Assembly: GCF_000519185.1 (NCBI RefSeq)
Contig: NZ_JAFA01000008.1
Coordinates: 1-64,000 of the forward strand
DNA length: 64,000 bases
DNA from: Paraburkholderia nodosa DSM 21604
GTDB taxonomy: Bacteria; Pseudomonadota; Gammaproteobacteria; Burkholderiales; Burkholderiaceae
Direction of reading: 5' to 3'
Within the stretch, counting starts at the first letter, position 1; each line of letters begins with the position of its first letter. The notes below the pieces were generated by a model. The model searched no databases. It was not told where the DNA came from and saw only the letters and a list, made by a program, of their open reading frames with translations. Shown in pieces: positions 9,161 to 48,792 of this stretch. Position numbers and translations under genes: made by a program.

Positions 9161-9210
9161 CAGCTTTGCATGGGATGGCGCGAGGCGCTAAAGCGCCAGG
9201 CGCCATCGAC
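9161..9210 (+). repeat. Interspersed hairpin repeat (single copy) before the MCP gene
   Basis: CAGCTTTGCATGGG (9161-9174) is followed by a long hairpin: 7-bp outer stem (9175-9181/9200-9206), a 2x2 internal loop, a 6-bp inner stem (9184-9189/9192-9197), then CGAC. The same leading box and architecture recur three times in tandem at 47.6-47.75 kb with different outer-stem bases. It sits immediately before the GGAG ribosome binding site of the chemotaxis receptor. Confidence 0.7.
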
Positions 9211-9224
9211 AAAGGAGACACCCG

Positions 9225-10646
9225 ATGACACGTTTGCGTTTGCTGGGTCTGCGCGGCCGCCGCCGCGCGGGAAAATCCGCCGGCGTCGTCGTCGACATTG
9301 CCACACACGCCGGCAGGCTCGGTATCGAGATCTGCGACGTGGCGGGCCATGTCGACGAAGTCGCCGCGCGCGTGCAGCGTCAGACCGACGTGTGCCACGC
9401 CCTGCGCGAGTCCGCGGCTCACACCCTCGCCGGCAACCACCAGATCGCCACGGCCGCTCGCGCCATGCGCACGCTGAGCACCGGCACCGCCGCCACTGTG
9501 CAGCAGTCGCAGCAGACCATCGAGGCGTCGCTTGCCGACATTCACGGTCTCGTGGAGAGCGTCACCGTCATCGAGACGCAGATCCGGGCGCTCAAAAGCG
9601 CGCTCGCGCATGTCTCGAAGGTCTCCGAGGAAATTTCCCTGATCGCGCGGCAAACCCAGCTTCTCGCGCTCAACGCGGCCATCGAAGCGGCGCGCGCGGG
9701 CGAGTCCGGCAAGAGCTTCGCCGTGGTCGCGGCCGAGGTGAAGAACCTCTCCGCCAAGACTGCGCAGGCCACCGGCCAGATCGAGAAAACCCTCGGCCAA
9801 CTCACGCAGCAGACCGAGCAGCTCATTGCCGAGGGCACCGCCAACACCGAACGCGCGCATCGCGTGCGCGAGGGCACGCACACGATCGGCGAGGCCGTGC
9901 ACAGCACCGGCCAGGCGATCATGCAGCTCGACGAGCACGCCGGCCAGATCGCCCAGCTCACGGGCGAGATCGAGACGAAGTGCGATGGGCTCGAAAGCCA
10001 GGTGGGCGAAATGGTCGCGGGCGTCGAGGATTCGGGTCGCAACTTCGTGCAAGCGAAGGATCAGCTCGGCAAGCTGCTCGAGGTCTCGGAAACGCTGATC
10101 GAACTTTCCGCCGCAACCGGTGTAGAAACCGACGACACCCGCTTCATCGAGACGGTGCAGCGCGCCGCAGCCCAGGTGAGCAAGCTGTTCGAAGGCGCGC
10201 TCGCGCGTGGCGAGATCGGCGAAGCGGATCTGTTCGATGGCGTCTACGCGCCAGTGCCGAACACGAACCCGCAGCAGCATATGACGCGCTTCACCGCCTT
10301 CACCGACCGGGTGTTGCCCCCGGTCCTCGAACCGCTGCTGACGTTCGACGAACGCGTTGCCTTCTGCGTAGCGATCGATCCGCGCGGCTACATACCGACC
10401 CACAATCGCAAGTTCTCACATCCGCAGGGCGCCGACCCGGTGTGGAACGCCGCGAACTGCCGCAATCATCGAATTTTCAACGACCGCGCGGGCCGCGCCG
10501 CCGGTTCGCACACCAAGCCCTTCCTGCTGCAAACCTACCGTCGCGATATGGGCGGCGGCACGTTCGTGATGATGAAGGACGCCTCCGCGCCGATCTTCGT
10601 GAACGGGCGGCATTGGGGCGGGTTTCGGATGGGCTACCGGCTGTAA
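9225..10646 (+). CDS. Cytoplasmic methyl-accepting chemotaxis protein, C-terminal sensor
   Basis: A 473-residue receptor without any membrane segment or signal peptide. The N-terminal half is a long coiled coil containing the conserved MCP hairpin tip ([24 protein letters not shown], near residues 141-165, given here only to locate it), which contacts CheA/CheW. The last 150 residues (ending [14 protein letters not shown]) look like a globular cache/PAS-like sensor with conserved His, Tyr and Arg. Signalling domain first and sensor last reverses the usual order and marks a soluble receptor sensing an internal cue. No other chemotaxis gene lies in the window. A GGAG ribosome binding site precedes the ATG. 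Confidence 0.88.
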
Positions 10647-10666
10647 GGACTGCGCCGCAACAAGCA

Positions 10667-10705
10667 AACGGCGCGCGGACATGACTGTCCGTGCGCCGTT
10701 TTTTT
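10667..10705. terminator. Bidirectional terminator between MCP gene and potI
   Basis: A 15-bp stem with one G-U-type mismatch (10667-10681 with 10686-10700) is followed by T7 on the plus strand. The opposite strand also ends in a T-rich stretch, so it can serve both convergent transcripts. Confidence 0.85.
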
Positions 10706-46849: not shown

Positions 46850-47590
46850 ATGAGTCTTCTTGAGCTCAGAGGCGTTTCCAGGCACTTCGGCGCCATTCAG
46901 GCGCTGACTGACGTGACGTTGAGCCTGGAACCCGGCCAGGTGGTCGGACTGATGGGCGACAACGGGGCCGGAAAATCCACGCTGGTGAAGGTCATCGCCG
47001 GCAACTTCCCGCCCTCCCATGGCGAAGTTCTCATCGACGGCAAGCCTGTTCATTTCGGCAGACCCGTGGACGCCCGCGCCAAGGGCATCGAGGTCGTGTA
47101 TCAGGACCTCGCGCTCTGCGACAACCTCACGGCGGCGGCCAACGTCTTTCTCGGGCGCGAGCCGCGCATCGGCATATGGCCCTTTCGCGTGCTCGATCAC
47201 GCGGCCATGTACCGGCGCGCCGCCGAGCTTTTCAAGGAACTGAAGTCCGAGACGCGCCCGCGCGATCTCGTCCGGCAAATGTCGGGCGGCCAGCGCCAGG
47301 CCGTGGCGATTGCGCGCACGCGACTGTCCGACGCGCGGCTCGTGCTCATGGACGAACCCACCGCTGCGATCAGCGTGCGCCAGGTGGTGCAGGTGCTCGA
47401 CCTCATCAAACGCCTGTCCGAACACGGCATTGCCGTCATTCTCATCAGTCACCGCATGCCTGACGTTTTCGAAGTCGCCCACCGCGTGGTCGTCATGCGG
47501 CGCGGGCGCATGGTGGCGGACAAGCAGATCGAAGCCTCTTCGCCGGAGGAAGTCACCGGCCTGATCACCGGAGCCATCGCCGCCGCCTGA
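46850..47590 (+). CDS. Sugar-type ABC transporter ATPase (single domain)
   Basis: A 246-residue ATPase with one ABC module: GDNGAGKST, MSGGQRQAVAIART, LVLMDEPTAAIS and ISHRM. Unlike RbsA-type proteins it has a single domain, as in FrcA of the CUT2 group, so it should work as a homodimer. It starts the operon ATPase-permease-binding protein. The 176-bp gap to the permease contains three hairpin repeats. Confidence 0.9.
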   Translation: MSLLELRGVSRHFGAIQALTDVTLSLEPGQVVGLMGDNGAGKSTLVKVIAGNFPPSHGEVLIDGKPVHFGRPVDARAKGIEVVYQDLALCDNLTAAANVFLGREPRIGIWPFRVLDHAAMYRRAAELFKELKSETRPRDLVRQMSGGQRQAVAIARTRLSDARLVLMDEPTAAISVRQVVQVLDLIKRLSEHGIAVILISHRMPDVFEVAHRVVVMRRGRMVADKQIEASSPEEVTGLITGAIAAA

Positions 47591-47603: not shown

Positions 47604-47754
47604 CGACGGCGTTGCAGGGGCCGCACAAGCGCTGAAGCGCCGGGTGCGGCCGACAGCTTTGCATGGGGCCGCACCAAGCGCTGAAGCGCCAAGTGCGCGC
47701 CGACAGCTTTGCATGGGGCCGCACTAAGCGCTGAAGCGCTAAGTGCGGCCGACA
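47604..47754 (+). repeat. Three tandem ~50-bp hairpin repeats in the permease leader
   Basis: Copies at 47604-47650, 47651-47700 and 47701-47750. Copies 2 and 3 have an exact 50-bp period and begin CGACAGCTTTGCATGGGG. Copy 3 folds as an 8-bp outer stem (47717-47724/47743-47750), 2x2 internal loop and 6-bp inner stem (47727-47732/47735-47740) with a GA loop. Copy 1 keeps the outer pairing; copy 2 has decayed pairing. The array ends against the GGAG ribosome site of the permease gene. A diverged copy precedes the MCP gene at 9161. Confidence 0.85.
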
Positions 47755-47766
47755 GGAGACCCGAAA

Positions 47767-48792
47767 TTGAACGATGCGCCGCAAAGGCCAAACCCGATGC
47801 CGACTTTGCTTGACGACCCCCAATCCGCGAAGACCCACACGCGCTGGAGCGGACTGCTCGCGAGCCAGGTGTTCTGGGTGGTGCTGGCGACGCTCGTTGC
47901 CTGCGTCCTGCTCTCGTTCGTTACCTCCACGTTCGCCACGCCGCAAAACCTCTTCAACGTCACGCGCAACTTCGCCTTCGTCGCCATCGTCGCGCTGGGG
48001 ATGATGGCCATCATCGTTACAGGTGGGATCGACATTTCGGTCGGCTCGACGATCGGCCTGAGCGGCATCGTGCTCTCCGTCACGATGAACGCGGGCTACC
48101 CGATCTGGGCCGGCATCGGCCTCGGCCTGCTCACTGCGGGGCTGGTCGGCCTCGTGAACGGCCTGCTCATCGCGTATCTCAACATGCAGCCTTTCGTCGT
48201 GACGCTCGGCATGCTGAGCGTAGGCCGCAGCCTCGCGCTCGTGATCTCCGGAAGCCGGACCATCTTCGAATTCGGACCCGACGGGCACAAGCTCCTCGTG
48301 CTCGGCGGCGGCAAAACGCTCGGCGTGGCCAATCCCGTGTGGTTTCTGATCGTCCTCGGCGTGCTGTTCTGGTTCGCCTTCGCCTTCACGCGTTGGGGCC
48401 GCTATGTCTTCGCGGTCGGCGGCAACCGTCATGCGGCAAATCTCACGGGCGTGCCGGTGCGGCGCGTGATCTGCTCGGTGTATGTGCTGGGCGGCCTGAT
48501 GGCAGGCGTCGCGGCCATTCTCGAAGTGGGCTGGCTCGGCGCGGTGACCACCGGCCTCGGCACCGGAGACGAACTCCGCGTGATCGCCGCCACGGTGATC
48601 GGCGGCACCAATCTCGCGGGCGGCGTGGGCAGCGCGTTCGGCACGATCGTCGGCGCCGCGCTCATCGAGGTGATCCGCAACAGCCTGATCCTGCTCGGCG
48701 TGGACTCGTTCTGGCAGGGCACGGTCGTGGGCGGCTTCATCATCATCGCCGTGCTGTTCAACCGGCTCGGCGGCGAGCGGCAAGAAGACTGA
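47767..48792 (+). CDS. Sugar-type ABC transporter permease
   Basis: A 341-residue CUT2-family permease with about ten hydrophobic helices. GGIDISVGSTIGLSGIVLS and GNRHAANLTGVPVRR plus GGTNLAGGVGSAFGT are family hallmarks (RbsC/FrcC type). I prefer the TTG start at 47767 (LNDAPQRPN read as Met) because GGAG lies 9 bp upstream; the ATG at 47797 has a weaker AAAGG site. It is preceded by the hairpin repeat array, which may affect its translation. Confidence 0.88.
   Translation: MNDAPQRPNPMPTLLDDPQSAKTHTRWSGLLASQVFWVVLATLVACVLLSFVTSTFATPQNLFNVTRNFAFVAIVALGMMAIIVTGGIDISVGSTIGLSGIVLSVTMNAGYPIWAGIGLGLLTAGLVGLVNGLLIAYLNMQPFVVTLGMLSVGRSLALVISGSRTIFEFGPDGHKLLVLGGGKTLGVANPVWFLIVLGVLFWFAFAFTRWGRYVFAVGGNRHAANLTGVPVRRVICSVYVLGGLMAGVAAILEVGWLGAVTTGLGTGDELRVIAATVIGGTNLAGGVGSAFGTIVGAALIEVIRNSLILLGVDSFWQGTVVGGFIIIAVLFNRLGGERQED

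Follow-up and report, generated by a model that had tools for sequence, protein, structure and literature searches.

A dispersed palindromic repeat of about 49 nt located mostly just upstream of Shine-Dalgarno sequences in Burkholderiaceae genomes

Small dispersed palindromes of bacteria are usually reported between genes or at 3′ ends, in both orientations, and the bacterial RNA naRNA4 is linked to one group of them, the REP repeats. In the excerpts available of the papers cited here, a REP is defined by a GTAG or GTGG tetranucleotide located 0–2 nt 5′ of the foot of its hairpin (PMC6006769), the rayt gene is flanked by two inverted REP copies, and REP stems vary while staying paired (both PMC2817692). 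The repeat described below is likewise a short extragenic palindrome present in many copies per genome, with 64 matches in the genome that contains the locus under study (the own genome, G000), but in its 88-copy consensus the hairpin is preceded by CATGG and not by GTAG or GTGG.

The locus lies in a 64-kb window (the whole stretch of DNA that was analysed, 64,000 nt), in which positions 9161–9212 hold a single copy of a unit of ~49 nt, consisting of a box, CAGCTTTGCATGGG, a hairpin of ~33 nt and CGACA. Its features, partly scored with the covariance model of the repeat, R1, are as follows.

9161..9174, + strand: conserved box CAGCTTTGCATGGG, in the unit upstream of the MCP gene, exact match
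9162..9212, + strand: whole unit (box, hairpin and CGACA) as found by R1, 63.1 bits, E 4e-13 in the window and 6e-11 genome-wide
9174..9207, + strand: hairpin with arms 9174–9189 and 9192–9207, 88% complementary, z −5.64
9213..9217, + strand: AGGAG Shine-Dalgarno sequence directly 3′ of the unit, read from the sequence
9225..10646, + strand: downstream gene for a methyl-accepting chemotaxis-type protein (MCP) of 473 aa with an MCP-signal domain (PF00015), from its open reading frame and Pfam domain

The hairpin at 9174–9207 has the design that an earlier, sequence-only reading of this DNA had described, in which an outer stem of 8 bp leads through a 2x2 internal loop to an inner stem of 6 bp closed by a 2-nt loop, and the folding energy of 9174–9209 is −28.0 kcal/mol (z −5.64), a value as low as this being found in none of 200 shuffles. 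That reading had also stated that the box is shared with an array at 47.6 kb and that in each place a GGAG site follows within a few bases; exact copies of the box are indeed present at 9161, 47654 and 47704, and AGGAG occupies 9213–9217 and 47754–47758. The array, at 47608–47755, is composed of three units at a spacing of 48–50 nt and takes up the space between two genes of the same direction, an ABC ATPase gene upstream and a permease gene downstream.

46850..47590, + strand: upstream co-directional gene for an ABC transporter ATPase (PF00005), from its open reading frame and Pfam domain
47608..47656, + strand: array unit 1, with a diverged box (GGCGTTGCAGGGG), R1 44.3 bits
47655..47706, + strand: array unit 2, R1 64.0 bits in the genome search, missing from the direct window search
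47705..47755, + strand: array unit 3, arms 47717–47732 and 47735–47750, R1 77.7 bits, in both the genome and the window searches
47754..47758, + strand: AGGAG Shine-Dalgarno sequence abutting unit 3, read from the sequence
47767..48792, + strand: downstream gene for a BPD_transp_2 permease (PF02653), ABC-type, with a TTG start, from its open reading frame and Pfam domain

The direct search of the window with R1 listed 9162, 47608 and 47705, the middle unit of the array being absent. Array units 1 and 2 are only slightly more stable than shuffles (z −0.80 and −0.57), and unit 3 is clearly more stable (z −4.77). Allowing up to two mismatches, the box matches three times in the window against 0.33 expected, a number that 0 of 100 shuffles reached. 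In the whole own genome there are nine exact matches; with up to two mismatches the count rises to 100, the reversed control pattern giving 63, indicating that most of these looser matches are due to chance. An ATG within the box (GCATGGG), an upstream ATG that most units carry, opens a 504-aa frame at 9170–10684 (+), out of frame with the MCP gene that it overlaps and probably an artefact of high GC.

Units were collected by searching the own genome for the box and by one contig scan with the 16-mer GACAGCTTTGCATGGG, which gave at least 119 stretches. Among the matches listed, 171 distinct units were reduced to 101 by removal of near duplicates, and 88 of these were aligned (alignment A2, consensus AGCTTTGCATGGGACCGGAGTAAGCGCTAAAGCGCNAACTCCGGTCGACAG), the remaining 13 being left out mostly for irregular form. 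A fold filter was passed by 169 of 246 box matches, in 82 of the 119 loci listed; from distant taxa in the 16-mer scan, none passed except L119, a Phenylobacterium MAG, whose sequence does not read as a unit. R1 was calibrated briefly, and its E-values are rough. In the own genome (9.63 Mb), 150 candidates were scored and 64 matched at E<=0.01, with a best E of 4.6e-15; one of the 64, an antisense shadow of C26:244190, was dropped before arrays were counted. At E<=0.001, R1 matched all 70 same-genus genomes and none of the 48 from other genera, 28 of which were shown as other families of the order. At the stricter E<=1e-5, matches were present in 128 of 299 genomes and in 8 of the 25 genera of the family, per-genome counts being minimum values, and the same-genus genomes G024 and G357 had none. 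Named records carrying units belong to Paraburkholderia, Burkholderia, Caballeronia and Trinickia, and within the samples searched the repeat was found only in Burkholderiaceae genomes. Three identical unit-like matches in G024 (L337, L341 and L345) adjoin what looks like a tRNA gene, perhaps within rRNA operons.

The position of the units relative to genes was scored in three sets. Contig loci had been selected by the box string alone, and after 15 of their 82 arrays, lying less than 400 nt from a locus end, were dropped, 67 remained. A sense start codon follows within 40 nt downstream in 55 of these 67 and an antisense one in 0 of 67; a coding-type start with a Shine-Dalgarno-like motif is located 6–20 nt downstream in sense in 48, and for seven no start was found within 300 nt. 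In the own genome, where the start finder required an open, codon-biased frame, a start lies within 40 nt downstream in sense for 38 of 54 arrays and in antisense for one, while eight have no gene start up to 300 nt away by this finder; by eye, GGAG and ATG can be seen right behind the unit in C1:96101, C3:117099 and C34:71103, which it scored as 41–120 nt. In plasmid and chromid records, a start codon was seen by eye close behind the last unit in 12 of 15, the exceptions being L285, L287 and L291. Units thus cluster just 5′ of start codons, a check that the sequence-only reading had proposed, and its notion of a portable 5′ UTR element is borne out as to position by a dispersed family docking in sense at gene starts; the effect on translation or RNA stability that it suggested is a putative one.

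The annotation of the plasmid collection served as an independent check of gene starts, and 11 of the 15 regions had no annotated gene within the stretch. Among the annotated regions, the gene starts 12 nt past the match in one, a longer array ends about 25 nt before the gene in another, the next annotated gene lies 462 nt downstream in a third, and in the last the nearest annotated start, 28 nt off, belongs to an opposite-strand gene, which contradicts the docking rule. A co-directional gene ends within 300 nt upstream of 42 of the 54 own-genome arrays, so many arrays are presumably transcribed. Several own-genome arrays have 100–200 nt free upstream and yet end beside the Shine-Dalgarno sequence, indicating that short gaps alone cannot account for docking. 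Docking at Shine-Dalgarno sites holds for most copies and is not strict, nested and composite copies being found at other sites. The downstream genes are of mixed function: of 43 proteins, 30 were scanned and 25 had a Pfam match at E<=1e-15, to families that include COX1, CoA-transferase III, thiolase, aldehyde dehydrogenase, LysR and ATP synthase epsilon. Transport proteins make up 11 of the 30, a raw share uncorrected for background.

Comparison of orthologous sites indicates that the repeat is mobile. At the permease locus, 9 of the 13 orthologues read are empty (for example ...CTCGCACGGGAGTCCCGAAATTG in G004 and G031), while G007 has ...CTCGCACG followed by one exactly placed unit of ~49 nt and then GGAG, and three units are present in G000, four in G016 and four in G023. 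No target site duplication, as looked for in a MITE of a DDE transposon, was seen in the filled site of G007 against the empty sites, the one clean pair at this locus. At the MCP gene, where 22 of 25 orthologues were read, only G000 has an intact unit, while G023 carries a decayed one and G018 a remnant of the box; the MCP protein of G016 is 98% identical, yet there is no intact unit at its site.

Units occur singly, in tandem with a period of about 49 nt, or nested. The 82 arrays in the listed contig loci consist of one unit (28 arrays), two (31), three (13), four (8) or five (2). At several loci a whole unit lies within the loop of another (...AGTAAGTGCT / TTGCATGGG...CGACAGCT / AAAGCGC...), which gives a spacing near 74 nt in place of 49. 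In the Caballeronia records L287 and L291, around position 1500, a unit sits within the apparent loop of a different palindrome (GGTTACTTTCTTTG / CCAAGAAAGTGACC), and these embedded units do not adjoin a gene start. In G150, 11 copies with identical top score lie within another GC-rich dispersed repeat, so the unit and this larger repeat seem to have spread together. Loci L265–L284, from G150, G130 and G166 of one genus, have the unit embedded in a larger repeat (...CCCCCTCGGGGGGA[unit]GCGAACG...TGAGCGTGGGGG...TTCAT), and in these three genomes the larger GC-rich repeat often terminates at a reverse-strand start-like CAT.

Given base changes that preserve pairing, the sequence-only reading had suggested a selected structure. 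Covariation is strong. In A2, 92.7% of cells are paired, 13 of 15 pairs have double changes and 153 cells are double-changed, each of these values being reached in 0 of 500 shuffles. In A3, an alignment of 30 sequences from before atpC from which a false row (G028) and a chimeric one (G019) had been removed, 90.6% of cells are paired and 37 are double-changed (0 of 500 shuffles each), and 8 pairs have double changes, a number reached by 39 of 500 shuffles. Pairing in both alignments beats shuffles, indicating that the palindrome is kept.

Selection on an RNA is a separate matter. A sense-strand RNA stem under selection is expected to tolerate G.U far above A.C, an uncalibrated yardstick that presumes strand-symmetric mutation. 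The outer stems of 197 units (17 of 214 distinct units were unreadable by the stem parser) contain 1436 Watson-Crick, 31 G.U, 46 A.C and 63 other cells, and those before atpC, with G028 removed, contain 205, 18, 14 and 11, respectively. In both sets together, A.C is as common as G.U (60 vs 49 cells), the own atpC copy entering both counts. Units had been found by a sense-strand fold-energy filter, which inflates pairing and favours G.U and is thus biased against this result. Since G.U is not preferred over A.C, selection on a sense-RNA stem is unsupported, and the kept palindrome points instead to joint renewal of both arms at the level of DNA, or to relaxed decay of inserted copies, over stepwise RNA selection. 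The claim of a selected RNA thus finds no support here, and strong stem covariation is by itself no proof of one.

The site before atpC was read in 54 same-genus genomes taken irrespective of the element, with G024 and G065 added for their unit there. A unit is present in 32 of the 54 (30 by script, together with G034 and G058, which are below threshold and were seen by eye) and 22 are without one, though some of these retain traces, for instance the box in G004. Two adjoining units, often with different stems, are found in G014, G025, G027, G029, G031, G047 and G050, and species with a single unit have either member of the pair, so that in our reading part of the apparent covariation between species reflects loss of one of two paralogous units. 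In a comparison of 23 single-unit-length sites, pairwise identity averages 0.95 in CGACA, 0.86 in the box, 0.77 across inner stem plus loop, 0.63 and 0.64 in the two outer arms, and 0.53 and 0.59 in two stretches of the upstream flank. Among four low-copy genomes the atpC unit persists in three (G014, G024 and G065) and is absent from G015. Box and inner stem being more alike than the flanks, together with this persistence, suggests co-option of some copies, or re-seeding or conversion from other copies. In the same-genus genomes, the atpD–atpC gap has a second variable stretch upstream of the unit, with GC-rich inverted repeats, which appears paired per species.

The family, its bias in site and orientation, its empty and filled sites, its arrays and nested copies and its presence throughout the genus are, in our judgement, probably the outcome of a non-autonomous mobile palindromic repeat of ~49 nt that is inserted as one piece, mostly 5′ of a Shine-Dalgarno sequence and in sense, and that later forms arrays, decays or is lost. 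The unit would land whole, mostly immediately 5′ of the Shine-Dalgarno sequence in the sense direction and, judging from the one clean site pair, without evident target duplication; it would then expand into tandem arrays with a period of about 49 nt or enter the loop of another palindrome, and units would later decay or vanish. Both arms would be renewed together as DNA, through a single-stranded hairpin intermediate or template switching, and because the whole palindrome would be copied, compensatory changes would arise without RNA selection. Transcribed copies would mostly be passive leader or intercistronic hairpins, of which some old ones, those before atpC, may have been co-opted. The unit may work in a REP-like way, as a single-stranded hairpin that is cut and re-joined, which fits landing in palindrome loops. 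Several points weigh against the mobile-repeat explanation: no transposase is linked to the unit, the RAYT-like gene described below having no unit nearby in three genomes; docking is not strict; the G.U/A.C yardstick is uncalibrated and presumes strand-symmetric mutation; and the identity before atpC of the box (0.86) and inner stem (0.77) against the flanks (0.53–0.59) suggests function or re-seeding over pure decay. That conservation, and the persistence of the atpC unit in three of four low-copy genomes, would be expected of a selected cis-acting RNA, in which box and hairpin, beside the Shine-Dalgarno sequence, would serve the mRNA as a stand-by for translation, an insulator or a module for stability, and the unit would have spread by recombination for its usefulness. 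Such an RNA would also account for the sense orientation, the narrow distance to the start codon, the presumed transcription of many arrays (42 of 54 with a co-directional upstream gene) and the covariation in A2 and A3. We nevertheless hold it to be rather unlikely: G.U is not preferred over A.C, units come and go at the same gene between related species, and no common function was seen among the downstream genes, the 25 of 30 proteins with a Pfam match being spread over many unrelated families, though transport is frequent.

A third explanation, a classical REP moved by a RAYT-like protein (an HUH/Y1 transposase) present in each genome, draws on a Y1-transposase-domain gene that was found in 41 of 41 same-genus genomes searched. 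In the own genome this gene (L260:3352-4461, G000:C29) encodes a 369-aa protein that matches NF047646, REP_Tyr_transpos, with 55.3 bits (E 6e-15), a score under the NCBI cut-off of 80 bits. The short 5′ head of the hairpin, ATGG, is one letter off GTGG, and the stems change yet stay paired, as the excerpted text of PMC2817692 describes for REPs. The head is nevertheless not GT[AG]G, no R1 unit lies within about 2.5–3 kb of the Y1-domain gene in three genomes (L260, L261 and L262), and the gene in L260 has no inverted repeat within the 550 nt before it or the 140 nt after it. For these reasons the unit is not filed as a REP, and the RAYT-like gene, having no palindromes in the flanks examined, may be domesticated. 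The unit length of 49 nt, the single orientation and the direct repetition also speak against a classical REP, which we judge improbable. Chance hairpins of GC-rich DNA, or a transcription terminator, would explain a GC-rich stem-loop as such, and would be in keeping with the two window copies out of four that fold little better than shuffles and with the chance origin of most two-mismatch box matches (100 vs 63). A terminator is ruled out by the lack of a T-run 3′ of the hairpins at both window sites and in own-genome copies. Chance is ruled out by the box shuffles (0 of 100) and by model matches across the genus, and an exact conserved box, E-values down to 4.6e-15, covariation and family-wide matches argue against it in the same sense, leaving this pair of explanations with practically no probability. 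The ordinary explanations fail, and the repeat family is real.

The most striking trait of the repeat is its one-directional docking at Shine-Dalgarno sequences. As this holds in one orientation across eight genera of one family, either the repeat moves by some targeting rule or selection on translation keeps the units there. It is possible, and offered here tentatively, that a single-stranded hairpin of ~49 nt is moved by a host-encoded enzyme and homes to translation-initiation sites, in one orientation, immediately 5′ of the Shine-Dalgarno sequence and in arrays; its insertions could then tune translation from the leader or intercistronic gap.

The sequence-only reading had named identity to a described REP or RNA family as the finding that would count against it. 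No match reached the curated Rfam gathering scores anywhere in the 64-kb window, both sites giving sub-threshold matches only, and for REPs the GT[AG]G head is absent and the Y1-domain gene is unflanked in three genomes. No description of the repeat was found in open-licence literature, where the box string and its reverse complement occur only in unrelated papers, and a description may exist elsewhere; the repeat is not mentioned in the available excerpts of a paper on B. cenocepacia transcription starts (PMC4603805), nor Burkholderia in a paper on REP families (PMC3733652). As far as Rfam and the open-licence literature reach, this looks like an undescribed mobile repeat.

Among bacterial RNAs, the best sub-threshold Rfam match was naRNA4 (RF02564), on the antisense strand and with 23.3 bits where the gathering score is 59.5, so the unit is no member of that family. 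According to the excerpts available of the remaining sources, the enterobacterial RU-1/2/3 repeats (PMC2759123) resemble it as small, mobile, MITE-like intergenic repeats, but they are 103–168 bp long and docking at Shine-Dalgarno sequences is not mentioned there. The TAACTGA direct repeats of Beggiatoaceae (PMC4679880) are similar in that the genes concerned show no pattern and a translational role has been proposed for them; they differ as a 7-nt repeat of unrelated sequence, and canonical ribosome sites are rare according to that paper, whereas here a Shine-Dalgarno sequence mostly follows the unit directly. With REP, BIME and REPIN elements and their RAYT (TnpA_REP) proteins, as presented in the excerpts of PMC2817692, PMC6006769 and PMC8266576, the repeat has in common short dispersed extragenic palindromes, tens per genome and clustered, whose stems vary yet pair. 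Unlike them, the unit lacks the GTAG/GTGG head and, in the three genomes examined, a flanked rayt gene, and it is a piece of ~49 nt that keeps one orientation relative to genes, is repeated directly and not in alternating inversion, and is mostly docked at Shine-Dalgarno sites.
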